Shown here: one piece after another, positions 3,234 to 52,917 of the stretch
How the letters are laid out: each line of letters opens with the position of its first letter
Numbering within the stretch: the stretch's first letter is position 1
Virus record (IMG/VR): IMGVR_UViG_3300025626_000029
Span: 1 to 59,110 of that record
Length of the DNA: 59,110 nucleotides
DNA from: a virus
Direction: 5' to 3' (one strand)
The notes under the pieces: generated by a model
What the model was told of the DNA's origin: nothing
Seen by the model: only the letters and a program-made list of their open reading frames with translations
The model's database searches: none
Translations under genes and position numbers: made by a program

Positions 3234-3398
3234 ATGACAGGCATTATTATATTACTAAGCATTGTGCTGTTGGTGAGTATGTTACACCGAATAGCAGGTA
3301 TAGATACAACAGCAGAGCACCCTTTCGCTTGTGGTAGTGATGAGGTATGTTACTGTTCTAAATCAGAAAACTGTAAGAAGCGTGAAGAGCAAGTATAA
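3234..3398 (+). CDS. Small single-pass membrane protein
   Basis: 54 residues. Residues 3-17 are a strongly hydrophobic stretch (GIIILLSIVLLVSM), followed by a short tail with four cysteines (ACGS, CYC, NC) and a charged end. The ATG at 3234 is chosen because the upstream TTG lies within the promoter box. The 3' end overlaps the next gene, whose GTG start is at 3382. It heads the rightward arm. Function unknown; it could be a small virion or membrane-active protein. Confidence 0.55.
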   Translation: MTGIIILLSIVLLVSMLHRIAGIDTTAEHPFACGSDEVCYCSKSENCKKREEQV

Positions 3399-3768
3399 GA
3401 AGTACGATAATGGCGGTAAGCCTAAGAAAAAGAAGAGAAGCAAGAAAACAGAGTTTGCCAGACAAATGGAAGAACTTGCTTTAGCGGCTAAGATTATGAT
3501 GCTTGAAGGTATTATGGATCCAGAGGATATGCCAGCAGAGATTACCAGCTATATTGATAGTGGTATGATGGGCGGAGCTATTGACCAAGAGGATTCAGAC
3601 CCTATGTATACTATGCGTCCCTATATGATGGACCCAGAGAACCTAGTTATGGCTAGAAACTCTAGACCAGGCAGAGAAGAATACAGCAAACGTATTCCTA
3701 TGCAAGAGGTTAGAGATGCTAGATTCCCAGAGCTCATGTTACCTAAGAAAAAAATAAGCCTGTTTTAA
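3382..3768 (+). CDS. Tagged virion-arm protein 1 (shared basic GG N-terminus)
   Basis: The open frame extends upstream to 3331, but I place the start at GTG 3382. Translation from there gives (M)KSKYKKYDNGGKPKKKKR, the same N-terminal signature as the next proteins, and the upstream part overlaps the previous gene. The product is 128 residues: a lysine-rich tag, then a methionine- and acid-rich body (EELALAAKIMMLEG, MMGGAIDQEDSD), then a basic end. No known domain. The stop overlaps the next start (TAATG). It is probably a virion or assembly protein, judged from the tag and operon. Confidence 0.65.
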   Translation: MKSKYKKYDNGGKPKKKKRSKKTEFARQMEELALAAKIMMLEGIMDPEDMPAEITSYIDSGMMGGAIDQEDSDPMYTMRPYMMDPENLVMARNSRPGREEYSKRIPMQEVRDARFPELMLPKKKISLF

Positions 3769-4988
3769 TGAAGAGTAAGTATAAATACGATGAAGGCGGT
3801 AAGCCTGGTAAGCCCGGTAAGAAAGGTCCTAGATTTAGCCGTATGATAGGCGGTCCTGTTCGCTATAAAGGTGGATGGGAAGATAAGCTAGAGGAACTAA
3901 TGCAATCTCAAGCAGATAAGTTAGCTGCACGTTACGGTTGGGCTCCCAACTATAGAGATGCAGAGCTTCCAGAAGATAGAAATAGAGACGATCTACCAGC
4001 ATTCTACGACTTTGTAACAAGAGCAAGAGCAGAAGACCTGTATGATGAGGCGCTACCATTAGATGATTATACTACAACATACAACCTAGGTCCATTATCA
4101 CTACAACGTTGGAAGAATGCAAAGCAATCACCAGATGGCGTAAACTATAGAACACCTTATTGGGCTGCTGAGAAAGTAAAAAAAATAGGAGAAAGCGTAA
4201 CTCTGGGGAAAACACGAGCCAATGCTGGTGTTCACTTAGGGGATGAGCAGAACGATATGCTAGAAGAAGTTAGATTTGGTAACTATAAGTTAGGACACCA
4301 AAAAGAAAAGCTAGATAACACCTTACTAGATAAGTTCAGACAATCTCTTGGTTCTGTGTTCCCACCTGCTAATACTCTTTTAGCTGGAGGTGCATCTACA
4401 GGAGGTAAGAATCTTGACGAAATAGCCCAGCTTGCTTACTCAGCAAAAACTTATAATGATTTATATAAGCAAGAAAAGATTCTGGTTGGAATACAGGATC
4501 AAATACAAGACGCACCCTCTGCCGATCGTCCAGCTCTAGTAGATCAATACAACCAAGCTTCTGAAGGGTACGAAAGAAAAACAGCTGAAGCTACTTGGTT
4601 TGCCCCAACTGCTGGTCTACTTGGTTTAGGTGGTCTTTCTACTACAGATGGATTGGTAATACCAACTGCTGGTCTTATGAGAAACCCACTTCAAAAAGCT
4701 TACAAGCAAGAGAAAAAAGCGTTTAAGAAAACTCTAGAAGACGCAGATGAAAGATACGCTTCTAACAGAGAAGAGTATTTAATGCAAAAGAGTCAACGTG
4801 AGTTAGATAGATACCTAGATGCTTACGAGGAGGAGTATGGTGTAAGACCAGTGTTTAAAGACCCACCAGTAACAAAGACACCTAGAAAAAAAGCTTCGGA
4901 ATATGTTATACCTAACGGCAGAAGAGGTGAAAACAGAAACCCTATATATTTGATGGATGGCGGTAAGGTAAAGCTTAAAAAGAAATGA
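3768..4988 (+). CDS. Tagged virion-arm protein 2
   Basis: 406 residues with the N-terminal signature MKSKYKYDEGGKPGKPGKK and, unusually, a second Gly-Gly basic motif at the very C-terminus (MDGGKVKLKKK). The body is largely helical and charged, with a small hydrophobic Gly/Ala/Leu stretch near residues 275-305 (WFAPTAGLLGLGGLS) that could touch a membrane. No enzyme motif was recognised. It is translationally coupled to both neighbours by four-base or shorter overlaps. Likely an internal or scaffold-associated virion protein; the exact role is unknown. Confidence 0.7.
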   Translation: MKSKYKYDEGGKPGKPGKKGPRFSRMIGGPVRYKGGWEDKLEELMQSQADKLAARYGWAPNYRDAELPEDRNRDDLPAFYDFVTRARAEDLYDEALPLDDYTTTYNLGPLSLQRWKNAKQSPDGVNYRTPYWAAEKVKKIGESVTLGKTRANAGVHLGDEQNDMLEEVRFGNYKLGHQKEKLDNTLLDKFRQSLGSVFPPANTLLAGGASTGGKNLDEIAQLAYSAKTYNDLYKQEKILVGIQDQIQDAPSADRPALVDQYNQASEGYERKTAEATWFAPTAGLLGLGGLSTTDGLVIPTAGLMRNPLQKAYKQEKKAFKKTLEDADERYASNREEYLMQKSQRELDRYLDAYEEEYGVRPVFKDPPVTKTPRKKASEYVIPNGRRGENRNPIYLMDGGKVKLKKK

Positions 4989-6220
4989 AAAGCAAGTACA
5001 GAAAATATAACGAAGGCGGACCTGTAAAACCTAAGAAGCGTAAATCACCTGTAAGCGAATACTTTGAATCGGCTCCAAAAGGAACAAAAATTGTTGATCT
5101 TAAATACAACGATGATGGAATGGCTATTTTTACATTTAATGATGGTCATGTAGTTTCTCAGAAGCACTCACAGACAATGGGTTATCCATATGACGCAGGT
5201 TATATGGAAAAAGTTTATAACGACAGGTCTCAATACGAAAACGCAGTCAAATCATTTAGGGACAGTTTGTCGTTGGCAAACTTTACAAGTGGTGGTGAAT
5301 TCCCAGAGTATGATTCAGATTGGGACCAGCCCGGAGCAATATCTAAAGAGGGTTCTGAAAAATCTGATTTAGCTAGAAAAATTGTAGAAAGATCAAAAGG
5401 TGATATAAAGGGGTATTACCCCGGAGAACAGCCTGGATACCATCTTTATAGAGAGCCTCCAATACTAAGATGGAGTAACGACCCTAATAAAAAATTAGAC
5501 GGAAACTATAGGGGTAATAATACCGAGTACTATGGATATACTGAATCTCCAGAACCATACAAAAGAACAAACTTTGATTCTGGTCAGACGTTAATGTATA
5601 ACGAAAATACTGGAGACTTCGGAATTCCTATGGATGTATACGAAACAAGAAAAGTCCCTATGGGTCAAGGTAATTTCACAAGTGTCAAATATAAAAACGA
5701 CAGAGGTGATGAGGAAAGTTTCTTAAAAGAAAAGCAAGGTGGCGACTATTTAAGAACTGGTAAAATTATACAAACCGCAGACGAGTCTGGTACTGACTTT
5801 TTAGATACAGGATACCACAGGGCATATTATCCCGATTTTGCTCCACCAAAGGTAAGACCTGTATACAGAGAGCCTGTAAGTAAATTATCTCTAAAACCTA
5901 AGGGATTTAATATAAAGCCAAACATACCCCAATTAAAACCAGTTAATACGCTACCTGACTTTTACTCTAGAAAAATGAATAGGAATGGAGATATTATATA
6001 CGAAACTAGCTTTGGGGAATTTGTCACAACCAAAGATCCTAATCAATTAGGAAGGATAAAAGGAAATAGTAACAGGTATAGAAACAAATTAAATCTACCT
6101 CCGATGCTTGATCAAGATTTTCAAAACATGTTTAGAAATCGTATTGACCAAGGTGTTAGAGACAATCGTGGGCAGTTTAAACAAAACCAAATGAATATAA
6201 AAGCCTCTTACAGAAAATGA
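4985..6220 (+). CDS. Tagged virion-arm protein 3, paralogue of the protein at 6889-7956
   Basis: 411 residues beginning MKSKYRKYNEGGPVKPKKRK. The body is rich in Tyr, Asp, Asn and Pro without a recognised fold. The C-terminal 90 residues contain RKMNRNGDIIYETSFGEFVT and PMLDQDFQNMF, matched closely by RRMNRKGDIIYNTSFGDYVT and PMLDQDFQNFF in the protein two genes downstream. The two genes are therefore tandem paralogues with diverged middles and conserved ends. The start overlaps the previous stop by four bases (ATGA). Function unknown. Confidence 0.7.
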   Translation: MKSKYRKYNEGGPVKPKKRKSPVSEYFESAPKGTKIVDLKYNDDGMAIFTFNDGHVVSQKHSQTMGYPYDAGYMEKVYNDRSQYENAVKSFRDSLSLANFTSGGEFPEYDSDWDQPGAISKEGSEKSDLARKIVERSKGDIKGYYPGEQPGYHLYREPPILRWSNDPNKKLDGNYRGNNTEYYGYTESPEPYKRTNFDSGQTLMYNENTGDFGIPMDVYETRKVPMGQGNFTSVKYKNDRGDEESFLKEKQGGDYLRTGKIIQTADESGTDFLDTGYHRAYYPDFAPPKVRPVYREPVSKLSLKPKGFNIKPNIPQLKPVNTLPDFYSRKMNRNGDIIYETSFGEFVTTKDPNQLGRIKGNSNRYRNKLNLPPMLDQDFQNMFRNRIDQGVRDNRGQFKQNQMNIKASYRK

Positions 6221-6876
6221 AAGTAAAGTACAACAACGGAGGACCAGTAAAGCCTAGCAAGTACGACAAGTACGGATTTCCGGTATCTGATACTACAGGC
6301 ACAGCTTCTTATGAGAAGATGGCTAAGTATCTTCTTGAGACTAGAGGAGGTAGCAGAGAGCGTATGGAAGACTTAATGTATGACATTGCAGCTGTTGAAT
6401 CGGGTAGAACATTTGACCCAGCTATAAAGCAAATAGGTGGCGGTCCAGGTCGTGGTATATTTCAATACGAGGGACCATTTACAGAAGATAGTAGCAATCG
6501 TGCTAAAGACGCTGTTAGTAGAGCTATGCAATATTACAGCTCTGATAAGACTGGTTCTATGCCAGAATGGCTACAGAATTTTATTGATGAGTCCGGAGGT
6601 TCTTATGACTTCTCTAAACTAACAATACCTCAGCAGAAGTCTCTATTTCTAGCTGACTACAGCCAATCTAAAAGCATACCTTTCAAAGCTTTTATGCAAG
6701 GCGAGGGTACAACAGAAGATATGTGGGCTGACCACCATAAAGTATCTGGTGCAGATAGACCACACTTCAGAGAGCTTGAGGAGTTAGCAGACAAACAAAA
6801 ACAAGCACGCACGCTAACAGACGATCAGATACGTTCAATGATGTTAGGTAGAAGCGTAATTCAAACCCTAAAGTAG
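6217..6876 (+). CDS. Predicted lytic-transglycosylase-like peptidoglycan hydrolase with the GG tag
   Basis: 219 residues. After the shared tag (MKVKYNNGGPVKPSK) comes a lysozyme/SLT-like fold: an AAVESG segment with a candidate catalytic Glu at residue 61, and a GGGPGRGIFQYE segment at residues 74-85 that resembles the second conserved block of phage and bacterial transglycosylases. The protein lacks a signal peptide, which fits a virion-borne enzyme used at entry better than a secreted lysin; the lysis cassette lies far away at 52211-53330. It is flanked by two paralogous tagged proteins. The enzyme class is inferred from motifs only. Confidence 0.6.
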   Translation: MKVKYNNGGPVKPSKYDKYGFPVSDTTGTASYEKMAKYLLETRGGSRERMEDLMYDIAAVESGRTFDPAIKQIGGGPGRGIFQYEGPFTEDSSNRAKDAVSRAMQYYSSDKTGSMPEWLQNFIDESGGSYDFSKLTIPQQKSLFLADYSQSKSIPFKAFMQGEGTTEDMWADHHKVSGADRPHFRELEELADKQKQARTLTDDQIRSMMLGRSVIQTLK

Positions 6877-6888
6877 CCCAATGCCACG

Positions 6889-7956
6889 ATGAAAAGCAAG
6901 CACAGAAAATATAATAACGGTGGACCTGTAAAGCCTAAGAAGCGTAAAAAAGAATTTACTGACCGCTCGGAATTTCTGAATCGATTATCCGCTTATAATG
7001 ACAGCTTGTATGCCGCAAACACTTCAGAAGCAGCATTGGCATATTTTGATGAAGTACTTGGAGACTACACAAAATACCAACAAACGCTTAGTGATCTTGA
7101 TTCAAGTGACAGGGTATCATACGCTGATATATTAGATAAAAACTCCAATATAGTAGGAGAACCTTATGATCTAAACGTAACTGCTACAAAAGATAATTTT
7201 GTTGCCCCTAGCGCATTAGATAGACTATTGGGAGATAACGAATTAAAGGTGAGTACTACCAATAGACAGTTAAACTATAAAAACTATCAACTCAAGAACC
7301 CCCAAAAACCTGTAGAACGATACACATACCAACCTCCTTCTGTTATTCTTTCAGATACAAAATACAGCCTTGGCTCTAACGGTGATAAAATAGAGAGGAG
7401 AACTTATAAGGATGGAGACAATAAAGGGGATTATATAAATCCAAAAACAAATCCTTTCTGGAGGTATAATCACCGGTACGAACTAGAGGATAACATATAC
7501 GATTTCAACAGAAATTTTGTTATAGATAAGTTCCAACAGCCAAATGTTGAACCCGTATACACGGGTAAGTCGACAGTAAACCCTATAGCGGGAAACCAGT
7601 TAAAAGCCATCAAGTCTCACAAAAAAAGATTAGTTAATCCGATGCCAAAAATTGCTATGGTAGAGCTACCCCCAAAGCTACCATTTGGTAACATGGAACT
7701 AAATAAAGTTCCTACACTGCGTAACGTACTTCCAGAAATCTATGGTAGAAGAATGAACAGAAAAGGAGATATTATATACAACACAAGTTTTGGAGACTAC
7801 GTAACAACTAAGGATTCAAATAGATTAAACATTCTTAGATCTGGAGCTTTAGGCAGTAGGTATAAAAATAAAGATAACGTTGCTCCAATGCTCGATCAAG
7901 ATTTTCAAAACTTTTTCAGATCACAAATAGAAAATTTACGTAACAACAGAAGATAA
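6889..7956 (+). CDS. Tagged virion-arm protein 5, paralogue of the protein at 4985-6220
   Basis: 355 residues. The tag MKSKHRKYNNGGPVKPKKRK is also nearly identical to that of the 4985 gene at DNA level over the first 60 bases. The C-terminus has the shared block (MNRKGDIIYNTSFGDYVTTK, then PMLDQDFQNFF). The middle is rich in Asn, Tyr and Lys and differs from its paralogue. There is a 12-base gap from the hydrolase gene, unlike the overlaps elsewhere in the cluster. Function unknown, but the pair bracketing a cell-wall enzyme suggests a shared virion location. Confidence 0.7.
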   Translation: MKSKHRKYNNGGPVKPKKRKKEFTDRSEFLNRLSAYNDSLYAANTSEAALAYFDEVLGDYTKYQQTLSDLDSSDRVSYADILDKNSNIVGEPYDLNVTATKDNFVAPSALDRLLGDNELKVSTTNRQLNYKNYQLKNPQKPVERYTYQPPSVILSDTKYSLGSNGDKIERRTYKDGDNKGDYINPKTNPFWRYNHRYELEDNIYDFNRNFVIDKFQQPNVEPVYTGKSTVNPIAGNQLKAIKSHKKRLVNPMPKIAMVELPPKLPFGNMELNKVPTLRNVLPEIYGRRMNRKGDIIYNTSFGDYVTTKDSNRLNILRSGALGSRYKNKDNVAPMLDQDFQNFFRSQIENLRNNRR

Positions 7957-7957
7957 C

Positions 7958-8230
7958 ATGGCAAAAGCAAAGAAAATGATCAAGCGTAAAGACGGTAGCT
8001 ACAGCAAACGTGGTTTGTGGGATAACATCCGTGCTAACAAGGGTTCTGGCAAGAAGCCTACAAAAGAGATGCTAGAGCAAGAGCGTAAGATTAAAAAGAA
8101 AGCTAAGAAAAAGAAATACTACGCTGGAGGTAAAGTGAAATACCTAGAAGGTGGTCAAGTAAAGCTTGATAAGAACGGCAACGGTGCTCTAGATGCTAAC
8201 GACTTTAAAATGTTGCGTGGTGAAAGCTAA
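7958..8230 (+). CDS. Small basic protein with Gly-Gly motifs and an EF-hand-like loop
   Basis: 90 residues. The N-terminal half (KRGLWDNIRANKGSGKKPTK, then EMLEQERKIKKK) looks like a small basic phage protein family. Two Gly-Gly basic motifs follow (YYAGGKVKYLEGGQVKL). Residues 71-82 read DKNGNGALDAND, with acidic or Asn ligands at loop positions 1, 3, 5, 9 and 12 and Gly at 6, which fits a calcium-binding EF-hand or dockerin-type loop. It is placed directly after the tagged proteins. Probably a minor virion protein; calcium binding is inferred. Confidence 0.65.
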   Translation: MAKAKKMIKRKDGSYSKRGLWDNIRANKGSGKKPTKEMLEQERKIKKKAKKKKYYAGGKVKYLEGGQVKLDKNGNGALDANDFKMLRGES

Positions 8231-17507: not shown

Positions 17508-20500
17508 ATGGCAATAAAGTTTCTCAATAGTTTAAATGCAGACTCTGGTGTTCTGTATGTAGATGCAAATAGCAACAGAGTAGGTATTGGCACAACGAGT
17601 CCTGCTGTAGGATTAGATGTTAGACCCCTTGCAAGATTCTGGCACGGTTCAACAAGCCACTTCACTCAGTTCTCTAACGGTAATGAGATAAATACCTTTA
17701 ACTCATCAGGAGGTAGCACTGTAATGTATTTACAATACAGAAGTGGTAGTTTAAATGTTGGTGCTGGAACTTTAATTGTTCAAAGTGGTAACGGTAACGT
17801 AGGTATAGGTACAACTAGTCCAGCAGCTAAGTTAGAAGTTGTTGCGTCCACATCAGGATCAATAAAATTTACTCAAGGCGCTAACGCTTACCAGCAGCAG
17901 ATAGAAACTACTGGTCATACTATATTTCAAAGACCTGATAATCATATATTTCAGGTTAAAAGGGGTACGACTACCGACATGTATATCCAGTCAAATGGCA
18001 ACGTAGGTATTGGTACTACTAATCCATTAGAGAGGTTACATATAAACGGTGCAATCAAATTAGATCAGAGCGCTAATGTAGTCGGCAATGGTATTGCACA
18101 CCATACAAATGGTTACCTATATGTAACAGGTGGTACTGCAGGAGCTGCAATAGGTAATGATTCTTATAGTAGCGCAGTATATGCATTAGACAACGGCTCT
18201 TTAGAACTGTATGCAGGAAGTTCAAACAGGCTTCATATCACTTCTGGAGGCAACGTTGGTATTGGACTTACAAACCCTTCTCAAAAATTACACGTTGACG
18301 GAAACATAAAAGCAAACGGTAGCGTAAGTGTAACCAATATCGTTACAAATAGAATTGTTAAATTTAACGGAAGTGTTCTTGATGATTCTTTGTTATACGA
18401 TAATGGTACAAGTATTGGTTTAGGAACTACATCGCCAAACCCTTGGGCTCAATTAGAAACTAGTGGTACTGTAGCTGTAGGAGGAATACTATATGTTAAG
18501 TCTAGTCAAAAAATTCAAGGTCTAACAGGATTTCCTGGTAGTGCTGGTAATTTATCAATCAACCCAGATGGAGGTAACGTAGGTATTGGGACAACTAGTC
18601 CATCTTATAAATTAGATGTAAACGGGGAGGGTAGGATTACAGGTATGACTTTTACAGCTTCAGGAGCTACAAGAGCAATATCTACACATTCATCTGCGGG
18701 TCAATTACAATTAAATGGTGGTACTTCTGCAACAACTGGTGCATATATTAATATAGCTGGAGACTCTTACTCTACTGGTGATTATGTTGAGATAATAGCA
18801 GGAAGAACATATTTTACAGGCAACGTAGGTATTGGTACTTCTAGTCCAGAGCAAAAGCTCCACCTTTCAGGAAACTTTCTATTACAGAACAACAAAGAAA
18901 TAAGATTTAAGGACACTGGAGGAACTCAAAGAACAATTACAAGAGTAAATTCTTCAAATGAATTAGAAATTGGTTGGAGTGGTAGTGGTCCTGTTAAGTT
19001 TATGGGTGGAGGTTCCTATACAGAGCGTATGCGTATCCACACTGATGGTAATGTAGGTATTGGTAAAACAAACCCAGTTCGCACTTTAGATATTAATGGG
19101 TCTTTCTTAGCTAGAACAGCTAGTACAAATTTAGAGTATAACAATGGCGTTATATATCACGGAGGAAGTTATTACCAATTTTCAAGTGGTTCAAACTACT
19201 TGCTATACGGGCGCTCTGGAATGGGCTTGGTATTTGGTTCAAATGATTCTGAAGCAGCTAGATTTGATTTATCAGGTAATCTAGGTATTGGGACTACTTC
19301 GCCCACAGCGGCATTACACGTTCAGAAAGCTATTAACGGAGGATTTGCAGGAACCATATACAATACTCAAGCCACAGGCGGGTTTGGATTAAGCGTAAGA
19401 GGGGGTAACTCATCTGCTGAAGACGCATTAAGAGTGCAAAATGTAGGCGGAACGTATTTACTAAATGTTAAAGGCAACGGTAACGTAGGTATAGGAACTA
19501 CTAGTCCTCAAACTAATTTAGATGTATTCTCAGGCACAGGTGGTACATTAAGATTAGGTACATCAGACACTGTTGTATTAGGTGGAGACACTATAGGAAG
19601 AATAGAATTTTTCTCTTCAGATGCTACTAATACAAATAGTGGACTAGGAGCTTTTATTGACCTTGTAGCAGACGGAAGTCAAGATCATTTTAATCCTAAT
19701 GGAGATTTGCGTTTTGGTACATCATATGCTTCAGCATCAGCTGCCACAACGAGGATGACCATAAAGGGTAATGGTAACGTAGGCATTGGAACAACTAGTC
19801 CTTCTGAGAAGTTAGAGGTTCTAGGCGACATCAGATTTGGAGGATCAACTAATGGAGATTGGGCTGTATTAGAATACGGAACAAAGTCAATACAGTTCAC
19901 ACAATCTAACGCAGGATCTGGAGGTCACGAAATGAAATTTAGAACTCCAGGATGGAGTACGGATGCATTTATATACACAAACGGAAGCACAGAAAGATTC
20001 CGTATTACTGGTACTGGTAACGTAGGTATTGGGACTACAAGTCCTTCTGCTAAATTACACGTAGACGGAGATGTCCGTATCACCGGAGCATACTACGACT
20101 CAAATAACTCAGCAGGTACATCAGGTCAAGTTCTTTCTTCTACAGCTACAGGAACAGATTGGGTAAGCTTATCTGAGATTCAAGGTGTAGACGGTAGCGG
20201 TACTACTAATTATATTGCTAAGTGGAGTGATACTGATACAATTGCTAATTCTGTTATTTATGATAATGGGACTGACGTAGGTATTGGAACTACTAGTCCA
20301 AATGTTGAGTTAGCAGTTTATCAAACCAGTACTCCAAGACTACACCTACAAAATTCAACAAGTGGAACTGCTTACAATAAAGGATTTCAATTAGCATTAA
20401 GTGATAATGATGGTTATTTATGGAATTGGCAAAACGGTTCTACAATTTTTGGAACCAATAATACCGAACGTATGCGCATTACTAGCGCAGGTAATGTTGG

Positions 20501-21680
20501 TATTGGTACTACATCACCAAACGGAAAACTTCACGTTTATGGAGGTAGGCTTGTATTAGATAATATAGCAACAGCTCAAACGGCTATACAATTTAACTCA
20601 GCAGGTTCTGAGAAGATAGTGATGTATAGACCAACTAGTACAGAGGATTTCAGGATATATACTCCAGCTGCCGGTGACGCTTTTACCTTATTACAATCGG
20701 GCAACGTAGGTATTGGTACTACTAGCCCACAACAAAAACTTGATGTTAATGGAAATATAGGTCTTAGTGGTAATGGTACCGGAAATAGGTGGATTTTATT
20801 AAATGAAACTAATACATATGCTGGAACTTTAAGAATACAAGCAGGAGGAGGTAGCGCAGGTTATGGTGGTGCTATAAATATGTACGGTCACTCTCACGCT
20901 ACTAATCCCGGAGATGTTGCTGTAGGAATATCTAATGGGTCTGGGGGTTCATTTAGAGTAAATAGCACAGGAATAGATACAGGCACAGATTTATTTATAG
21001 TAAAATCATCAGGCAACGTAGGTATTGGGACTACTAGTCCTTCTTATAAGCTAGATGTTCAAGGCAATGCTGGATTAGCTACTATTAACACTAATGGAGC
21101 GATACAAGCCGGTGGGCAGTTTATTTCTGGTGCTGGTGAATTCGTGTCTAGTAGTTCGGGAACAGATGTGAATTTTAGAGCGGGTTCAACGCACCTTATG
21201 GTTCTAAAAACATCAGGTAACGTTGGTATTGGGACAACATCGCCTTCTGAAAAGCTTGAGGTAGACGGTAATGTAAAAGCTAACAGCTTCATCGGAGGCA
21301 ATGAGGCAGGTATCTACACCTTTAATGATACAGTCAATGCTAGTGCTTCAGAAGACATCTTTAGCATATCTAATCAACACGGTGCGCAGGCATTTAGAGT
21401 CACCTTTGTGTGTAGTACAAGTTCTTATTCTGTAGCTAAAACATTTGAAGTGGTACATTCTCACGGAATTGACCCTGTGTTCTTTAAAGTGGTAGACACA
21501 GGCGCTTTTGGAGGTCACGACTTTGATGTAAGTTTTGCAACAGAAGCAGGTGGTGGAGCGGCAAATAACAACAAAATCATTTGTACCATCACAAACAACT
21601 CCACAACTGTCAACGCAGACATTGCAACAACCGTCTTCTTGGGTGGTTCACCAACAACAATAACAGTAACAGCTTTATAA
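17508..21680 (+). CDS. Tail fibre protein 2 with GNVGIGTTSP repeats
   Basis: 1,390 residues. The MAIKFLNSLN anchor-like start is followed by about seventeen copies of a block whose core reads GNVGIGTTSP and continues KLDV/KLHV, spaced by variable beta segments, and often preceded by ERMRI or RLHI. This is the usual architecture of Bacteroidetes and marine phage trimeric fibres. It ends without an S74 chaperone, in a distinct C-terminal domain (HSHGIDPVFFKVVDTGAFGG) that may be the tip. Repeat cores are also nearly identical at DNA level (GGTAACGTAGGTATTGG variants), making recombination between copies likely. Confidence 0.8.
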   Translation: MAIKFLNSLNADSGVLYVDANSNRVGIGTTSPAVGLDVRPLARFWHGSTSHFTQFSNGNEINTFNSSGGSTVMYLQYRSGSLNVGAGTLIVQSGNGNVGIGTTSPAAKLEVVASTSGSIKFTQGANAYQQQIETTGHTIFQRPDNHIFQVKRGTTTDMYIQSNGNVGIGTTNPLERLHINGAIKLDQSANVVGNGIAHHTNGYLYVTGGTAGAAIGNDSYSSAVYALDNGSLELYAGSSNRLHITSGGNVGIGLTNPSQKLHVDGNIKANGSVSVTNIVTNRIVKFNGSVLDDSLLYDNGTSIGLGTTSPNPWAQLETSGTVAVGGILYVKSSQKIQGLTGFPGSAGNLSINPDGGNVGIGTTSPSYKLDVNGEGRITGMTFTASGATRAISTHSSAGQLQLNGGTSATTGAYINIAGDSYSTGDYVEIIAGRTYFTGNVGIGTSSPEQKLHLSGNFLLQNNKEIRFKDTGGTQRTITRVNSSNELEIGWSGSGPVKFMGGGSYTERMRIHTDGNVGIGKTNPVRTLDINGSFLARTASTNLEYNNGVIYHGGSYYQFSSGSNYLLYGRSGMGLVFGSNDSEAARFDLSGNLGIGTTSPTAALHVQKAINGGFAGTIYNTQATGGFGLSVRGGNSSAEDALRVQNVGGTYLLNVKGNGNVGIGTTSPQTNLDVFSGTGGTLRLGTSDTVVLGGDTIGRIEFFSSDATNTNSGLGAFIDLVADGSQDHFNPNGDLRFGTSYASASAATTRMTIKGNGNVGIGTTSPSEKLEVLGDIRFGGSTNGDWAVLEYGTKSIQFTQSNAGSGGHEMKFRTPGWSTDAFIYTNGSTERFRITGTGNVGIGTTSPSAKLHVDGDVRITGAYYDSNNSAGTSGQVLSSTATGTDWVSLSEIQGVDGSGTTNYIAKWSDTDTIANSVIYDNGTDVGIGTTSPNVELAVYQTSTPRLHLQNSTSGTAYNKGFQLALSDNDGYLWNWQNGSTIFGTNNTERMRITSAGNVGIGTTSPNGKLHVYGGRLVLDNIATAQTAIQFNSAGSEKIVMYRPTSTEDFRIYTPAAGDAFTLLQSGNVGIGTTSPQQKLDVNGNIGLSGNGTGNRWILLNETNTYAGTLRIQAGGGSAGYGGAINMYGHSHATNPGDVAVGISNGSGGSFRVNSTGIDTGTDLFIVKSSGNVGIGTTSPSYKLDVQGNAGLATINTNGAIQAGGQFISGAGEFVSSSSGTDVNFRAGSTHLMVLKTSGNVGIGTTSPSEKLEVDGNVKANSFIGGNEAGIYTFNDTVNASASEDIFSISNQHGAQAFRVTFVCSTSSYSVAKTFEVVHSHGIDPVFFKVVDTGAFGGHDFDVSFATEAGGGAANNNKIICTITNNSTTVNADIATTVFLGGSPTTITVTAL

Positions 21681-21688
21681 AATAAGAT

Positions 21689-24600
21689 ATGGCAATCACG
21701 TTTAATCACAACGATCAGGTATACGTAAAGGACGGTAAACTAGGTATTGGAACTGCTAGTCCAGCAGCTAAGTTAGAGGTGCTTAGCGGTGGCGGTATTC
21801 ATATAACCGATGACTCATTAGGGAGGACTTTAATAATAAAGCCAAGCTTATCGGGAGCTGTACACGAGTTTACTAGCGACAACACTGCAGCTGGGTATTC
21901 TTTTTCTAATAACTCATCCGAATTTATGCGTATTGCCGCAGACGGCAACGTTGGTATTGGAACTACTAGTCCTTCTTACAAACTGCACGTAGATGGAGAT
22001 ATTGGTATAAACGCTAACGATGCATTTAAAGCTAGGTATGATACTAATGAAAACTACCACGGTTCATTTAGATGGTCAGGCTACAATTAGGTAATAACGG
22101 AGCTAATAAGATTATAGCTGGTAGAACAGGCACAGCCGGGTATTTTCAGTTCTACGTAAACAATACAAACGATGCTTCAGATTATAATGTAACCCCAGAC
22201 GGTACTAAAATCTTAACATTAGCAGCTGATGGTACATCAACATTTACTGCAGGCAACGTAGGTATTGGAACTACTAGTCCAGCAGCTAAGTTGCATATAA
22301 AGATAAATGATTCTGGTGCTACTCCTATATCTCAACAACACTTAGTATTAGAACATAACTCAGCAACTGGATTAGGTATATTAACAACATCATCCACTTC
22401 TGGATATATTTTCTTTGGAGATGAAAATGATGCTCAACGTGGGTATATTTCATATAATCATCCTACTGATGATATGACTTTTAAAGTAGCTGGGTCTGAA
22501 AGGATGCGTATCATTAATAACGGCAACGTAGGTATTGGGACTACTAGTCCAGCCCATCCCTTGCACGTAAACGGTGCGGCTAGACTACAGGGGGCATTAG
22601 AAGTAAACTATGGGGTAAGCACTGCTGATGCAGCAATTAACGTAGGTGTATCTAGGACAGATAGCGGCTATGCTTACTTAGATTTAATTGGAGACACAAC
22701 ATACACCGATTATGGGTTAAGAGTAATCAGAGGAAACTCTGGAGCAAACGCCTCTTCTCAAATAAATCATAGAGGAACAGGAGATTTTGAATTTCGTGCG
22801 TTAGAGGCAGCGAATATTACATTTGATACTAACGCTACTGAAAGAATGCGTATTACTTCAGCAGGTAACGTAGGTATTGGAACTGCTAGTCCGACTTCAC
22901 AGTTTACCATCTCTGACCCAACTGCACCAACACTAGAGTTTAACCGTCAGGGTTCAACTGCTAATGGGTGGATAAAAACAACAGATAGTTCTCAAAACGT
23001 AGAAGCTGCTATTCAAATGTACGGAAACGAAGTGCGTTTGTTTACAAATGGAGAAAGTAACCAGAGAATGATGATAGACGCTTCTGGCAACGTTGGTATC
23101 GGGACGACAGCGCCTGTAAGTTTAGTACACGCAAGCAATGGAAATTATAGGGTTTCTAATGAGACTGCTGCAACTTTTAGGGGTTATGTTTTTGGAGCAA
23201 CTGCGGGCGACTCTACGGAATATAGTTACTTAAAATGGGAGCCTCAAGGAGGAGAATTGAGACTATGGAATAATCCGGCAGCATTTGGTGGATTTTTTAG
23301 TATTTATACAAACGCTGTAGAACGCTTACGCATCACCAGCGCAGGCAACATAGGTATTGGTACTACTGCACCAAATCATAAACTTGATGTTTCGGGTGTT
23401 ATTATGGGTAGAAGTGGTATTTCTACTTACGGATACCATAGAACAATTCCGGTATATTCTTATAGCAACGGAATTCTTATAGCTACTAATATCGCTACTT
23501 CTGACAATAATATGATTCAGTTAGAAGTTAGCGGAAATACATATTCAAACGGTACTCCTTTAAAAGCTCAATATCAGTGTTATAACTACACCAGTAGTGG
23601 AACATTTATTAGAAACTACGGCATTTCAACTCATCCAGAATTAGAGGTAGATGTTTTTCATTACAATGGATACGTTTACTTTTGGATGGAGCAGGTAAGC
23701 GATTTTAATACATTAACGTTTGAATTGTATTCTGGACTGTACAGTGATAGAAGAATAACTCAAACAAGCAACTCTGCTAAACCAACAACCGGAGTAACTA
23801 ATAGTGTAACTATTGTTCCTAAGTCTTGGTGGCACAGTGGAAATGATGGTACTGGTAGCGGATTAGATGCTGACTTACTAGATGGATTAGAAGCAACAGC
23901 TTTTGCAACTGCAGCACAAGGAACTAAAGCAGATACTGCACACGGATGGGGTGACCATTCTACTGAAGGATATGCACCTTTAGCTTCACCTGCTTTAACC
24001 GGTACACCAACAGCACCAACAGCAGGATCTACTACAAACAACACACAGCTTGCTACAACAGCTTTTGTACAAACTGCGGTATCAAACCTTGTTGACTCTG
24101 CTCCAGGTACGTTAGACACGCTTAATGAGCTTGCAGCTGCATTAGGTGACGATGCTAACTTTAGTACTACAATGACTACAGCATTGGGTAATAGATTACG
24201 TATTGATACTAATGCTCAAGGTCTAAACGCAACTCAACAAGCTAATGGTCGTACTAACCTAGGGCTGGGTACGGCTGCTACTTCGGCATCAACAGACTTT
24301 GTTTCAGCAACTGCTGATGATACAATGGCTGGAAAGTTAACTATTCAGAAAGTTTCTTCAAGTGTAAGTCAAGGTTCGTTTAGTCATTCAAATGCTCATT
24401 TAGATTTATACAATAGTTGGGAATCTAATACAGACCAAAAGGGTTCTATAATTACGTTTACCGACAATTATTACGATGGAAGTAATTACATTAAAACCAC
24501 AAGAGCAGCAATAAAAGGAGGAACTGACACTGTAGGTAATACTGCTGATGGTTATTTAGAGTTTTACACAGACTCTGCTGGAGCTAATTCTCCAAGTCTT

Positions 24601-27564
24601 GCATTAAGGTTAGATAGAAATCAAAACGCTACTTTCTCTGGAACTATAACAGCCACTGGAGGAAACTCTACTAACTGGAACACAGCTTACGGCTGGGGCA
24701 ATCACGGATCAGCTGGATACATAACATCGCAACGTGCTATAAGCAGTACTCCTACAGATGGTGCTACCACAACAGCTATAAGTTCTGATTGGGCGTTTGA
24801 TAATGTTAAGACTGCTGTGCCTGCTAATGCTGTGTTTACAGATACAGTGAATACTTTTGATGGTGCATATACTTCTTTGACTGGGCTGCCAACATTAGGA
24901 ACTGCAGCTGCAACTGCTTCTACTGACTTTGCAACTGCTGCTCAAGGAACAAAGGCTGACAATGCCTTACCAATTTCAGCTGGTTCAACAAAACCTTTGA
25001 GTGACAATCTTCATTTTAGCGCAGCTGCTTCATATATATTTGGCGGTGACGATGAGATATTAGCAGGACAAGATGGTAGTGCATATTACTACGCAACAGG
25101 TAATGGTCAAAATTTAACAAAGCCTGTTTTTATCGGTGACAATAACGCATATATCAGATTTAATTCTGGTAATTCAGAAAAGATGCGTATTACAAATGCG
25201 GGCAACGTTGGTATTGGCACTACTGGTCCTGCTAAAAGGCTATCTGTAGAAACAAGCGATACTGCTACATATGACCCTACAATCAACGCTTCTGAGATTA
25301 GTGTATCTAGAAAGAACAGTAGCAATACAGCAGGTCAGGTAGCTGCAATCAGTCTTAATGCAACCGGTTGGTCAGGACAAACTACGGGTGTAGTAGTCCT
25401 TAATGCTATAGCACGTCAAGGAAACTTTAGTAATGCAGACTTTGCCATTCAGAACAGAGTTGGTGGGAGTTTTGTAGAAACATTTAGAATTACTACATAC
25501 GGTAATGTAGGGATTGGTACTGATACTCCAGACGACAATATAAATACTGGGACTTATTTTAAACCAGATAGTGGTGGTAGATTCTTAACAGTAAAGGACA
25601 GTTCAGGTTCTTTTATAATGTTAGAAAGCAGTACAACCACAGATGATGACCAAATAGGTGGGATATACTTTAACAACACAGTCGGTCAAGCAGATGCTCA
25701 CGTACACGTAGCGGGGATTGATGCTATTCTACACAAACACGGTACAAATGATGCACTTAGTGGTGGAGATTTAAGATTCTTTACTAAGCCCTCTGGAAGC
25801 GGGATAAACGGTCCTAGGATGGTTATTTTGCAGAATGGCAACGTAGGTATTGGGACGACTAATCCTGGTAAGAAATTGGATGTAAACGGAGAAGCAAGAG
25901 TAAATAGTATTTTAACTTTAAACAGAGCAAGTGCAGCTAGTTTAAAATTTTCCAGAGGTAGTGACTTTTATTTAGGCATAGATGATTCAGGGAATTTAAA
26001 CTTTTTAAACAACGCAGCTTCTAGTTTAGGTGTTTGGCAAAATACAGGTAACGTAGGAATTGGAACTACTAGTCCTTCTACAAAACTACACATAGATAGT
26101 GTTGATGGTAGTTCAAACAGAACCTCTCCGTTTAATGTATTGACAATAGAAGCAGAAAGTGGTACACTACCTTATACTGGTTTCGGTGGTGGTATTGTAT
26201 TTAAGAACAGAACCTACACCTACGGAATGCTGACCTCAGCTAGAATACGTAGTGTTATAGATGCTGACTCTGCATCAAATAGAGGAGCTGGACTAACTTT
26301 TGAAACTACTGATGTAAATCAAAACTACATTAGCGCTATTTCTCTGAAGTACAACGGGGCTATACAGTTCCCACAGTACGGAGCAGGCTTCCTAGTAACA
26401 GACGCAAATGGTAATATATCTTCAGATACTAATACCTACCTAACATCCGTAGCATTCTCAGACTTAACAACCACACCAACTACAATAGCTGGTTATGGAA
26501 TTACTGATGCACTACAGATAGGAACTACAGCAACAACAGCTTTAGCCGGTGATACTTCTATACCTGCAAGCGGTACTGATTTTGATCCTGTAGGTACAGA
26601 TAATAGTACCGATGTAACTTTAGATACCAGCTCTTACGATTACCTTTCTATAAGTGGTCAAGAGATTACGTTAGGGCAGATTGATTACGATGCTGATATA
26701 ACTAACCTACCTACACTTGGTACAGCTGCTGCGGCAGATACAGGTGACTTTGCAAGTGCGACTCAAGGGGCTACTGCTGATTCAGCGTTACAACCAGCAG
26801 ACATAATTACCTTTGCTGGTGATGGTGAAGGTCTTGTGCCAGACGGAACTTCAGCTGATGCTTCTAAATTCCTAAACGGAGATGCTGGATGGACAGTACC
26901 TACAAATACTGTAACAAGTGTAGGTGTATCTGGAGATTTATCTACTGGAAATATAACTCTTGCAGGAAGCGGTGATGTTACCGTAACTAAAAGCGGTGGT
27001 ACTATTACAATTGATTGCAGCGATACAGATACGCAGTATACAGCAGGAGCTGGTTTAGATTTAACTGGAACTTCATTCTCTATAGAGGCTGACTTGTCTT
27101 CAGATGTGCATACGATAGGTCGTGATGCAGATGACAAGTATGTAGTCAACACTACAAACCACGCTTGGTACTTGGATGGTGTGTTAGATATGCGCCTTGC
27201 AAACAACGGTACTCTTGATGTAGACGGTGATGTTGTTGCTTTCTCTACTGTTACAAACTCTGACCGCAGATTAAAGACGGACATAGAGACTATTGAGAAC
27301 GCTTCTGAGAAGGTTTCTAAGTTGCGTGGTGTATCTTACACTTGGGATCACGGTAAGCGCAAAGGACAGCGTGATATAGGTTTGATTGCTCAAGAGGTTG
27401 AAGAGGTTGTACCAGAGGTAGTAAGCGAAGGTCAGCTACTAGACGGAACAACAGCTAAACGAGTAGACTACGCTAAACTAGTTGGTTTACTTATTGAGTC
27501 CAACAAAGAGTTACAAGCTCAGGTTAATGAACTAAAAGATAGATTAGATGGCATTACAAAGTAG
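21689..27564 (+). CDS. Tail fibre protein 3 with C-terminal S74 chaperone, interrupted by a 1-base frameshift near 22079-22081
   Basis: Two frames, 21689-22090 and 22072-27564, read as one fibre. The first starts MAITFNHNDQVYVKDGK and breaks after FRWSG; the second resumes with LQLGNNGANKIIAGR, the natural continuation (FRW-x-GLQLGNNG is a common fibre string). The sequence TGG TCA GG CTA lacks one base of the Gly codon at 22079-22081. The joined protein has about eleven GNVGIGTTSP repeats and ends in an S74 intramolecular chaperone/autoprotease beginning NSDRRLKTDI (Ser at 27259-27261), with IGLIAQEVEEVVPEVV and a final coiled coil. S74 domains trimerise the fibre and then cut themselves off. 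Confidence 0.75.
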
Positions 27565-29267: not shown

Positions 29268-29561
29268 ATGAAAGCGAAGAAGAAAGACTCACGTTTGAAA
29301 AGTGCAGGGGTATCTGGTTACAATAAGCCTAAGCGTACACCTAGCCACCCTAAAAAGTCACACGTTGTAGTGGCTAAAGTCGGAGATAAGGTTAAGACTA
29401 TACGTTTTGGAGAGCAAGGCGCAAGCACTGCTGGTAAGCCTAAGTCTGGTGAGTCAGATCGTATGAAGAAGAAACGTGCATCATTTAAAGCACGTCATCG
29501 CAAGAATATAGCTAAAGGTAAAATGTCCGCAGCATACTGGGCTAATAAGGTTAAATGGTAA
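29268..29561 (+). CDS. Basic conserved phage protein
   Basis: 97 residues, about a third Lys/Arg. The blocks KSHVVVAKVGDKVKTIRFGE, then SGESDRMKKKRASFKARH and NIAKGKMSAAYWANKVKW at the C-terminus are a string I recognise as a family seen in many marine phages. The strong positive charge suggests DNA or RNA contact or a capsid-interior role. It is the first gene of the signalling operon, and its TAA overlaps the next ATG (TAATG). Exact role unknown. Confidence 0.7.
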   Translation: MKAKKKDSRLKSAGVSGYNKPKRTPSHPKKSHVVVAKVGDKVKTIRFGEQGASTAGKPKSGESDRMKKKRASFKARHRKNIAKGKMSAAYWANKVKW

Positions 29562-29719: not shown

Positions 29720-29907
29720 TACACAAATGGACTTCAGTTAGAGCAGTATACTTATTAATGTCTGCTGTTTTGTTTTTAGGATTAACCCTTCAGTCTTGGT
29801 GGGTTGTTGTCTTTGTAATCGCTATGCTTAACGTAGGGGTGTGGACTAAGTTTTGTCCAAGCAAATGGTTCTTTGAAAAAATAGGATTCCGCAACACAGA
29901 ATTGTAA
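29716..29907 (+). CDS. Two-helix membrane protein (DUF2892-like)
   Basis: 63 residues from ATG 29716; the open frame reaches 29686 but that would overlap the previous gene by 34 bases. It starts MIHKWTSVRAVYLLMSAVLF and continues WWVVVFVIAMLNVGVWTKFC, so two membrane helices, with a CP dipeptide (FCPSKWFFEKIGF) as in the YgaP-type DUF2892 family. Four-base coupling to the kinase downstream. Role unknown; possibly accessory to the membrane sensor. Confidence 0.55.
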   Translation: MIHKWTSVRAVYLLMSAVLFLGLTLQSWWVVVFVIAMLNVGVWTKFCPSKWFFEKIGFRNTEL

Positions 29908-30806
29908 TGAATGCTCTTGACGGCATCTCAAAAAGGTCAATTGTATGCTTGATTTGCTCCATACTAATTATGCTAACCTTTTTTGTATTTAAGACTCTCG
30001 TAGTATTTAAATACATACATCACTCCACATTTACACATTACTTTGAATGGCTATCTGTAATAGCCTTTATGCCACCTTTCTTTATGGTGGTACAAGAGTT
30101 CTTGCAAAACAAGGCTAAAATTAAAGACGACCTAAGTAAAAAAAATATCTACTTAGAACACGCTGCTAAAATTATACGTCACGATATGCATAGCGGTATC
30201 AATACCTACTTACCAAGAGGTATCAAATCACTGAACCGTAGGCTTACAGATAAGAACATTAAAGACTTGCGTATTAGCGCACCTTTAAAACTTATTAAAG
30301 ACGGCTTACACCACGCTCAGAAGGTGTATGCTGGCGTGTATGAGTTTACCAACTTAGTAAAAGAGAATGCACAGCTAAACAAATCTCCGCACAACATAAT
30401 AGAAATACTAACAGACTACTTAAAGCTCACTGCTTACAAAAATCAAGTAGTATTATCAGATAACTTACCAGACGTATTAGATGTTAATGAGGCATTGTTT
30501 TGTACTGCGTTAGATAACTTTATTAGGAATGGATTAAAATACAACGACAGTGGAACTAAGTGGGTAAAAATATACCACGAAGGCAGTTACCATACAGGTT
30601 CTTATCTTGTTGTAGAAGACAACGGCAGAGGCTTAACAGCTGAAGAGTTTATAATCCTATCGAAGCCTTACACCAGAAAAGAAAACCAGAAAGAAGCTGG
30701 GACTGGACTTGGTTTAAACATTTCTATAGAGATTCTAAAAGAACACGGATACAGCGTGTCTGCTAAAAAAACAGGTAACGGTACAAAAATATATATAAAG
30801 TTATGA
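29907..30806 (+). CDS. Phage-encoded sensor histidine kinase
   Basis: 299 residues. Two membrane helices (about 12-34 and 48-66) bracket a very short outer loop, so sensing is likely within or at the membrane. The dimerisation/phosphoacceptor helix has IIRHDMHSGINTY with His92. The ATPase domain carries all expected boxes: N-box TALDNFIRNGLKYND, G1 VVEDNGRGL, G2 GTGLGL near 265-270. It should therefore be an active kinase. The next gene, a stand-alone receiver, overlaps its end by four bases and is the obvious partner. Complete two-component pairs are rare in phages. The stimulus is unknown. Codon use and spacing match the neighbouring genes, so the pair looks resident rather than a recent insert. 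Confidence 0.85.
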   Translation: MNALDGISKRSIVCLICSILIMLTFFVFKTLVVFKYIHHSTFTHYFEWLSVIAFMPPFFMVVQEFLQNKAKIKDDLSKKNIYLEHAAKIIRHDMHSGINTYLPRGIKSLNRRLTDKNIKDLRISAPLKLIKDGLHHAQKVYAGVYEFTNLVKENAQLNKSPHNIIEILTDYLKLTAYKNQVVLSDNLPDVLDVNEALFCTALDNFIRNGLKYNDSGTKWVKIYHEGSYHTGSYLVVEDNGRGLTAEEFIILSKPYTRKENQKEAGTGLGLNISIEILKEHGYSVSAKKTGNGTKIYIKL

Positions 30807-31240
30807 TTGACACATTAATGCTCATAGACGATGAAAACCTCTTCCACCTTGTGTTTGAAGATGCTTGTTCTATGTTGGACATTGCTCTATCTATAGAGTC
30901 ATTAGACAGCTCTGATGAGGCTGACAGAAAATTTAAAGCTTGGTTTCCAGACGACCCAGACCACGAGCGTCCACAATGTGTATTCGTAGACTTAAACATC
31001 ATTGGCTCTTCTTTTGATGGTATCGAGATGATACGAAAGATAAATACAGAATACGGAAACGGATGTGTTATAGGAATTATATCGAGTAGCTCCGACCAAG
31101 AAGAGATTGATAAAGCTAAAGCTGTAGGCGCTCAGTTCTGGATTATTAAGTCTGATGACATAGAACCACGACTTGAGGAATTCCACAAAGACTACGAAGG
31201 TTACGTAAGTAAAACAAATCCGTTTAAGGTTTATAGATGA
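30803..31240 (+). CDS. Stand-alone response-regulator receiver
   Basis: 145 residues forming one receiver fold and nothing more: acidic pair D9-D10 (LMLIDDE), phosphoacceptor D63 (CVFVDLNI), hydroxyl residue S94/S95 (GIISSSS) and invariant-type Lys116 (WIIKSDD). No DNA-binding output domain follows, so, as with CheY or Spo0F, signal output must be by protein contact or phosphorelay. A longer acidic insertion (PDDPDHERPQ) precedes strand 3. It is translationally coupled to the kinase and to the coiled-coil membrane protein downstream, a plausible output target. Confidence 0.85.
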   Translation: MIDTLMLIDDENLFHLVFEDACSMLDIALSIESLDSSDEADRKFKAWFPDDPDHERPQCVFVDLNIIGSSFDGIEMIRKINTEYGNGCVIGIISSSSDQEEIDKAKAVGAQFWIIKSDDIEPRLEEFHKDYEGYVSKTNPFKVYR

Positions 31241-41072: not shown

Positions 41073-42005
41073 ATGGATCCAATTACAATGTCACTTCTCG
41101 TAGCTCAAGGTGTAGCCGGTCTGGGTAAGACTGGTTATGGTTTGTATCAGCAGAATGCTGGTAAAGCTGGTTTAGCTGGAGTACAAGAAGCTTCACGCAT
41201 GAAGCCGGCTGAATATGCCGAGATGTTAAAACAAGCTAAGTCTGGTCAAGCTGTACAGCAGCGTATTAGCGAGATAAACAAGGCGTTATCTACATCTACA
41301 GAAGCTTTACAGCGATCAGGTTCACGAGCTGTTATTGGAGGTATAGGTAAGGTTGTTGATGCAGGAACAGGAGCTACAAACCAGTTACTAGCACAACAGC
41401 AAAGAGATATTATGTCTGCGTTAGGCGCTTCTGCTATGGGTTCTGAAAGACAAATAAATAGAGATACACAGCGTGAAATGCTTGAACGTCAAGGATTCCA
41501 AAATGCCATTAATGCAGGTGTTCAAAATACTGTTAGTGGACTAAGCGATATTGGAAGAACTATTGGTTATGGGGCTTCTATGAGAAATGAGAGCAAAAAA
41601 TCTGGATCTGATTTACAAGACCCATTAGATTTTGAGATGAAAAATCCTCTGGAAGAAACAAATATACCTCAAGTAGGTGACCCTCTTCTAGAAGGTGGTG
41701 TTAATGCAGCTGGTATTGCCGAAATGTACAGACCCACTTCAAGCCCTATGATGGATTTAACTCTAGAGGAAGAAGAGGCAGCACGTAGAGCTATTAGCCA
41801 AATGAATAACTTTAAATATGGTGGTATGATGCAAACTCCAGGAGAGTTTAGTCATGATACTAATCCTATACACATGATCCAGGACGGAGAAGTTATTGGA
41901 GAAATGACAGGAGGGGAATACGTTTTGAACCCAAAACAAGCAAAAGCTATATCTAAAGAATCAAAGTTCTTCCGCAATTTGTTAAAGACAAAAAGATTTA
42001 AATAA
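41073..42005 (+). CDS. Internal virion protein with hydrophobic N-terminus
   Basis: 310 residues. The N-terminus (MDPITMSLLVAQGVAGLGKT) is hydrophobic and Gly/Ala-rich, like T7-type internal virion proteins that enter the host envelope. A helical middle follows. The C-terminus holds FKYGGMMQTPGEFSHDTNPI, HMIQDGEVIGEMTGGEYVLN and PKQAKAISKES, a module I recall from other phage virion proteins; its KYGG string echoes the Gly-Gly tag of the 3382-7956 cluster. It overlaps the next gene by one base. Role inferred. Confidence 0.6.
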   Translation: MDPITMSLLVAQGVAGLGKTGYGLYQQNAGKAGLAGVQEASRMKPAEYAEMLKQAKSGQAVQQRISEINKALSTSTEALQRSGSRAVIGGIGKVVDAGTGATNQLLAQQQRDIMSALGASAMGSERQINRDTQREMLERQGFQNAINAGVQNTVSGLSDIGRTIGYGASMRNESKKSGSDLQDPLDFEMKNPLEETNIPQVGDPLLEGGVNAAGIAEMYRPTSSPMMDLTLEEEEAARRAISQMNNFKYGGMMQTPGEFSHDTNPIHMIQDGEVIGEMTGGEYVLNPKQAKAISKESKFFRNLLKTKRFK

Positions 42006-52210: not shown

Positions 52211-52435
52211 ATGAAAAAGTTCGTAGAGATTTTTAATAATGACAACAGCTACAATGAGAAGACGGTAATAGGTTTTTTATCGTTTGCTGTTATGGTATTG
52301 GTAATGCTTGCCGATGTAATCACTGGAGCGTTTGGAGCACACCTACCTATCAATGAGTTTACTTATAACAGTTTTGTTATTGTTACTTTAGGTAGCTTTG
52401 GTATCGCAGGACTAGAGAAGTTTGCTAAAAAATGA
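52211..52435 (+). CDS. Holin-like protein
   Basis: 74 residues. Two hydrophobic stretches (VIGFLSFAVMVLVMLADVIT and FVIVTLGSFGIAGLEKF) joined by a short linker with GAHLPINEF, and a basic end (KFAKK). This matches a holin type seen next to endolysin-like genes in Bacteroidetes phages. Holins open the inner membrane at a set time. It directly precedes and overlaps (ATGA) the DUF5675-like gene, so the cassette reads holin, wall-acting protein, spanin. Confidence 0.65.
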   Translation: MKKFVEIFNNDNSYNEKTVIGFLSFAVMVLVMLADVITGAFGAHLPINEFTYNSFVIVTLGSFGIAGLEKFAKK

Positions 52436-52917
52436 TAAGAGCTATGGAGTTAGAGGTACTACGATTCAGCAGCCAAGATGATTCAACAAATGGAATATTA
52501 TTTGATGTTACAGGAGGACAAAGAAAGTTCTTGTGCTATACCCTTGAAGACGAATATCGTGAAGATAAAGTCATGGGTGAAACTAGAATTCCCGCAGGCA
52601 CATATAGAATAACACTTAGAACTGTTGGTGGATTCCACGGCAGATACAAAAAAAAGTATGGCGAGATGCACAAAGGAGCGTTATGGGTACGTGACGTTCC
52701 TAACTTTGAGTATATCCTTATTCATACTGGTAATACTGACGAACATACTGCTGGGTGTCTTCTTTTGGGTGATTCTCAACAAGCGAACTTTGGCTCTAGT
52801 AATGGTATGGTGGGGTCAAGTGTTAATGCGTATAAAAGAGTCTATCCTCCGATTGCTAAGGCACTTGAAGAAGGGGAATCGGTAAGTATTACTTATGTAG
52901 ATTTTGACACTGTATGA
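52432..52917 (+). CDS. DUF5675-like wall-acting protein (L,D-transpeptidase-like motif)
   Basis: 161 residues. The block TRIPAGTYRITLRTVGGFHG and the later LIHTGNTDEHTAGCLLLGD follow the DUF5675 family. The second block carries H98, H105 and C109 in an order resembling the L,D-transpeptidase catalytic HxnHxxxC site, so a peptidoglycan-directed role is plausible. It sits between the holin-like and spanin genes, where a phage usually keeps its endolysin. No signal peptide. ATG 52444 is an alternative start. Lytic activity has not been shown and is inferred. Confidence 0.65.
   Translation: MIRAMELEVLRFSSQDDSTNGILFDVTGGQRKFLCYTLEDEYREDKVMGETRIPAGTYRITLRTVGGFHGRYKKKYGEMHKGALWVRDVPNFEYILIHTGNTDEHTAGCLLLGDSQQANFGSSNGMVGSSVNAYKRVYPPIAKALEEGESVSITYVDFDTV

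Follow-up and report, generated by a model that had tools for sequence, protein, structure and literature searches.

Why should several neighbouring phage genes, whose products have little else in common, begin with the same short basic peptide built around Gly-Gly? The question is raised by the viral metagenome record IMGVR_UViG_3300025626_000029, whose 59,110 bases (the whole stretch analysed, hereafter the window) come from an uncultured virus with marine-type bacteria as its hosts. Between positions 3382 and 7956, five consecutive and nearly abutting open reading frames of the + strand (ORF1-ORF5) open with a Lys-rich Tyr-x-x-Gly-Gly sequence, referred to here as the tag. With moderate confidence, we read this tag as a short modular linker that here stands at protein ends and that belongs to Bacteroidota phage proteins carried in the virion and ejected, where it would probably act as a packing or docking signal. 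The linker follows the pattern basic - aromatic - x0-3 - Gly-Gly - x - Val - Lys/Asp - Pro/basic. Judging from its terminase, portal and capsid proteins, the phage is placed near the Flavobacterium elemoviruses, Cellulophaga phage phi38:1 and the Pachyviridae; at the DNA level, no relative of the window was found among named phages.

The tagged genes and their motif copies

The five starts, read from the DNA, are near-identical, and the sequence-only reading of five adjacent proteins with one shared basic N-terminal Gly-Gly tag is thereby confirmed. ORF1 (3382-3768, 128 amino acids (aa), GTG start) carries the tag MKSKYKKYDNGGKPKKKKR at 3382-3438, and ORF2 (3768-4988, 406 aa) carries MKSKYKYDEGGKPGKPGKK at 3768-3824. 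ORF3 (4985-6220, 411 aa; tag MKSKYRKYNEGGPVKPKKRK at 4985-5044) and ORF5 (6889-7956, 355 aa; tag MKSKHRKYNNGGPVKPKKRK at 6889-6948) have a C-terminal segment in common, which aligns over 84 residues with 55% identity; the bodies, earlier described as mostly unrelated, therefore form four families and not five. ORF4 (6217-6876, 219 aa), which bears the tag MKVKYNNGGPVKPSK at 6217-6261, is a predicted lysozyme-like hydrolase with its domain at about 6301-6801. Its earlier assignment as a peptidoglycan hydrolase is based on a lysozyme-like motif (AAVESG...GGGPGRGIFQYE) and weak family matches, not on structural evidence. In three of the five tags, Pro directly follows Gly-Gly.

The motif is also found away from the N-termini, and the C-terminal echoes proposed from the sequence alone are indeed present. 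ORF2 contains an internal copy, MIGGPVRYKGG, at about 3843-3875 and a C-terminal one, NRNPIYLMDGGKVKLKKK, at 4932-4985, so that the protein end reads LMDGGKVKLKKK (to 4985). Two further copies are arranged in tandem (YYAGGKVKYLEGGQVKL, about 8117-8167) in a basic protein of 90 aa (7958-8230, + strand), followed by an EF-hand-like loop. The C-terminal end of this small protein consists of a single EF-hand/dockerin-like calcium loop (LDKNGNGALDANDFKML), kept in many relatives. A match of ORF2 to the toxin family PF15646 was rejected, its score being 20.3 bits against a cut-off of 27.6.

A loose form of the tag, defined as at least three K/R before aromatic-x0-3-GG within the first 30 residues, is present in 5 of the 59 window genes, one of them a different protein at 8193, against an expectation of 1.9 when N-termini are shuffled. 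Bacterial and archaeal genomes totalling 257 billion bases contained no match to the strict DNA form MKxKY..GGPVKP. The tag used as a tblastn query likewise had no match, probably because the BLAST low-complexity filter masks it. Codon usage within the tags is uneven: the same codon is used at 9 of the 12 residues shared by ORF1 and ORF2 (5.7 expected) and at 14 of the 17 shared by ORF3 and ORF5 (7.6 expected), and these two pairs of tags are likely copies. Codon sharing in most other pairs is near the codon-usage expectation, and the constraint would therefore act on the protein sequence.

The motif in relatives and in crAss-like cargo proteins

In closer uncultured relatives, the terminase gene is preceded by the tagged block; the tag is kept, and the bodies and their order vary between contigs. 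The body families include those of ORF1, ORF2 and the hydrolase, the C-terminal segment of ORF3/ORF5 behind variable middles, and others. The ORF1 orthologues of two contigs (G001 and L082) retain the tag, and the C-terminal NRNPI..GGKVK of ORF2 is invariant across four homologues. In contig L084, an ORF2-type body and the hydrolase are fused in one ORF of about 549 aa whose joint reads NRNPIFLENGGKVKEG; its counterpart in the window is the ORF2 end NRNPIYLMDGGKVKLKKK and the ORF4 start MKVKYNNGGPVKPSK. Furthermore, a 347 aa protein of G001 bears the motif at both termini. In this protein (L140), in L023:445-924 and in L259, the sequences LDEVSVTA, LDEATVTA or LDEVVINS stand near the Gly-Gly motif and resemble a TonB box.

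A second line of evidence comes from a 310 aa protein (41073-42005, + strand) encoded between a 1408 aa tail protein and a 2930 aa giant protein. Its orthologues in about 20 sister contigs are tagged, with starts reading MRPKKSKEPKKYAVGG, MKYQKDKNVKKYIAGG, MKPKKGKPVKKYAVGG or similar. The family is homologous to phi18:3 gp120 (hhalign probability 96.7, E = 4e-10), which is annotated as a structural protein from tandem mass spectrometry (MS/MS). By profile homology, the window protein thus belongs with the internal virion proteins phi18:3 gp120 and phi38:1 gp99, and it occupies the same place as they do, flanked by the tail protein gene and the last long gene.

A third line leads to the crAss-like phages. 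The cargo protein C1 of crAss001, gp45, was seen by virion mass spectrometry and cryo-electron microscopy and is bound to the portal via residues 425-552 (PMC10172136). It starts with MAKKKIKRRGKMPPNIFDTGG, a basic N-terminus leading to FDTGG, ends with EYTGGTKKAKGGKVRTKKKKGLTYG, a GGKVRTKKKK C-terminus, and contains aromatic-GG motifs throughout; most of the gp45 relatives examined have similar termini. When 2.9 million viral contigs were scanned for GGPV(D/N)PPxK, eight matched: one with a 17-codon frame, one with the tagged hydrolase of the window lineage, three with copies of a small tagged EF-hand-type protein, and three (phi14:2 gp081, L259 and L263) with proteins that each contain the Pfam domain crAss_CARG1 above the cut-off. 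In phi14:2 gp081, annotated as structural from MS/MS, the CARG1 domain is followed by two GGxVDPPxK motifs. The 1170 aa protein of L259 begins with an ORF4-type enzyme, continues with FAVGGPVDPPTKKK and further modules, and ends with crAss_CARG1; ORF4 is homologous to its N-terminal domain (33% identity over 142 aa, E = 8e-23; hhalign 99.3). The same enzyme and CARG1 also share one chain in L269, L271 and L281, as well as in L275, where CARG1 scores just under the Pfam cut-off. In another phage group, a phrog_7595 domain is joined by the linker KSQKKRFEDGGVVDPPKKE to an ORF4-type enzyme, and the window encodes this domain as a separate basic protein of 97 aa (29268-29561, + strand). The motif thus recurs, is conserved among relatives and stands in virion proteins of other phages identified by mass spectrometry.

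Two side observations concern these groups. In several crAss-like phages (L242, L270, L271 and L281), cargo protein 1 appears to be split, the first ORF matching only the first half of the CARG1 profile and the next one giving weak domain matches. In addition, contigs L091-L138 (e.g., L098, L099, L106 and L116) contain ORFs of 21-39 codons that are almost wholly motif, single or in tandem (MKSKYAAKAGGLVKKKNGG..., MKKKYKAGGTVKKKKGGTVKLKKYHHGGRV...).

Packing signal, rival explanations and neighbouring genes

The sequence-only reading had proposed a removable N-terminal tag serving as a sorting or packaging signal on cargo. Its second half survives as the best-supported reading, given that the motif is found on homologues of an MS/MS-verified virion protein and at the joints of crAss-like cargo. 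Removability is not supported: copies of the motif also stand at C-termini, in tandem and as linkers between modules, and in some relatives the motif remains part of a fused chain. A docking or packing signal that stays uncleaved is favoured because it fits N-terminal, C-terminal and internal placement, which a cleaved leader does not.

From these relationships we infer the virion location of ORF1-ORF5, their docking, its acceptor, their ejection, and the activity and role of the hydrolase, in the following way. In crAss-like phages, lysozyme-like, peptidase-like and portal-binding CARG1 modules can share one chain, with the motif at the joints; in the window phage, the modules would correspond to separate genes, with the motif at the N-terminus of each (in ORF2 also at the C-terminus), beside the small basic protein with two copies. 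Through the uncleaved motif, the cargo proteins would all dock on the same acceptor of the assembling head, be it the portal, an internal virion protein or the core. In this way, unlike proteins would be packed close to the portal and exit before the DNA, and ORF4 would open the cell wall locally during entry. A separate gene pair (52432-53330), DUF5675 and lipoprotein-like, may have its function in lysis, so that ORF4 would be available for such a role. The assignment as putative cargo is well supported for ORF4 and, owing to the L084 fusion, fairly supported for ORF2; for ORF1, ORF3 and ORF5 it is suggested by association only.

The main rival, which we consider unlikely though still a serious contender, is a flexible basic inter-domain linker left as a tail after the fission of multi-domain cargo; it would hold no sorting information, and its bearers could still be virion proteins. 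The Gly/Lys/Pro-rich composition, the placement at module joints and the existence of the same modules both fused and split are what such a passive linker would give. It accounts poorly for the six hydrolases in which the motif residues K, GG, V and K do not vary as enzyme identity falls to 31%, for the presence of one motif both on unlike bodies and in the 310 aa family, which is unrelated, and for the synonymous differences between most pairs of tags, from which it follows that the protein sequence is held. Improbable, in our judgement, is binding to DNA or charge neutralisation, by which Lys-rich tails would anchor the proteins to packaged DNA or host nucleic acid and Gly-Gly would be a hinge. 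The abundance of Lys/Arg in the tags agrees with it, as do the basic copies arranged in tandem in the 90 aa protein and in small proteins encoded on other contigs, but the aromatic, GG and V positions are kept although charge does not need them, and Asp-Pro-Pro replaces Lys in some linkers. Slightly less credible still is a functionless tag, with shared starts that would have arisen as genes were copied and recombined within an array of cassettes. The excess codon sharing of ORF1/ORF2 and ORF3/ORF5, the common C-termini of the latter pair and the variable gene content of the relatives speak for copying; the other pairs of tags, for the most part near codon-usage expectation, and the persistence of the motif across distant phage groups speak against it, as would its conservation with saturated synonymous sites in many orthologues, which was seen in part. 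Finally, a leader that a phage protease would cut behind Gly-Gly, with the RadC/JAB-like domain of the giant protein (43403-52195, + strand; Pfam RadC, residues 1690-1803) as a possible candidate, is very improbable even with Gly-Gly as the most constant element, considering the Pro that follows it in three tags, the C-terminal and internal copies, the uncut fusions that occur as single ORFs and the other roles annotated for phage RadC-like domains.

Several observations weigh against a packing signal. The loose motif is common by composition, about two per genome, which makes the shuffle test weak evidence; since the loose pattern arises in this way, the argument is carried by how nearly identical the five adjacent starts are and by their conservation in relatives, neither of which is chance. 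As to whether homologues share the N-terminus, the closer relatives do, unlike the nearest cultured ones among the elemoviruses, phi38:1 and the Pachyviridae: no tag was found in the stretches examined, about 50 kb of each, of an elemovirus, phi38:1, phi18:3, phi13:2 and Gundel_1. Nor was it found in the Manatee Spring record, and a clear tag was not seen in HMO-2011 and HTVC010P. Short peptides with similar motifs are present in other viral contigs. The 310 aa protein of the window itself is untagged, and therefore the tag is not required for every virion protein. No homology was detected between the 310 aa family and crAss001 gp45, so that only gene order and the termini support this link. 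The motif is missing next to the enzyme in several enzyme-CARG1 fusions and in other hydrolase homologues, and the CARG1 domain was not matched in the window record, five relatives and four cultured relatives. The AlphaFold models of the 310 aa protein and of the hydrolase are poor (predicted local distance difference test, pLDDT, 49 and 44, respectively), and profiles compared with PDB sequences gave nothing convincing.

Tentatively, and with clear doubt, the packing signal could be extended to a general, uncleaved and transferable code for the injected proteins of Bacteroidota phages, in which an aromatic-GG-x-V-basic motif at module ends or joints would let unlike cargo dock on a single acceptor close to the portal, and injected sets would be built by fusing, splitting and swapping modules at the motif. 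No earlier description of the motif was found in the literature (open-licence papers), nor an answer to how crAss-like and other Bacteroidota phages choose the proteins that are packed and injected; of the cargo, the published crAss001 structure shows no more than parts of a single protein (PMC10172136). With a motif that can be read from sequence, injected cargo, enzymes and unknown proteins among it, could be predicted in uncultured phages, and tests of cargo loading in laboratory phages would gain a peptide handle.

Other genes of the window deserve mention. A second RadC/JAB-type sequence is a separate gene of 151 aa (828-1283, - strand) that matches a phage DNA-repair family. Very long fibre-like genes rich in NVGIGTTSP repeats occupy 17508-27564 (+ strand). 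The last of them consists of two overlapping ORFs (21689-22090 and 22072-27564), with a Peptidase_S74 chaperone domain at the end, and a frameshift may therefore exist there. Within the virion gene block, sensor histidine kinase-like (HATPase_c, E = 3e-14) and response-regulator receiver genes (Response_reg, just above cut-off) lie back to back at 29907-31240 (+ strand), possibly as a phage-encoded two-component pair. Among those window proteins that were scanned, a part of the total, none was recognised as a prohead protease.

Comparison with known systems

Gly-Gly near the N-terminus is also a feature of bacteriocin double-glycine leaders, which are amphipathic sequences preceding small peptides and are cut off by C39 transporter peptidases. 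This type was rejected on sequence: the tags are Lys-rich, stand on proteins of 128-411 aa and often continue with Pro.

Other parallels are found among phage head proteins. The capsid targeting sequence of the T4 internal proteins suffices to load foreign proteins, is N-terminal only and is cut by the prohead protease (PMC7697877, PMC5694885). The window tags resemble it as short N-terminal sequences common to unlike proteins, but here the motif is not confined to N-termini, with C-terminal and internal copies as well, and there is no indication of cutting. The ejection proteins of the giant phages SPN3US and phiKZ have N-terminal propeptides in common, for which prohead targeting was proposed (PMC5694885). 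Like the tags, these are N-terminal sequences shared between proteins; the propeptides, however, are mostly long and cut at A/S-x-E-type sites, and no sequence resemblance to the tag was seen.

A further parallel is crassvirus cargo protein 1 (crAss001 gp45; PF25725), which is packed in the virion. Both have a basic N-terminus leading to aromatic-x-x-GG and a basic GGKV C-terminus; the crassvirus protein has aromatic-GG-x-V motifs between its modules, and some members hold the ORF4-type enzyme. With PF25725 the window proteins indeed share a catalytic-type module (ORF4, E = 8e-23) and the aromatic-GG-x-V-(D/K)-P linker motif. Crassvirus cargo consists of one or two long proteins with the portal-binding CARG1, whereas the window encodes short separate proteins that lack it. 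Since neither the window nor its relatives have CARG1, we do not assign the tagged proteins to crassvirus cargo protein 1; by analogy, we propose that they would work like it.

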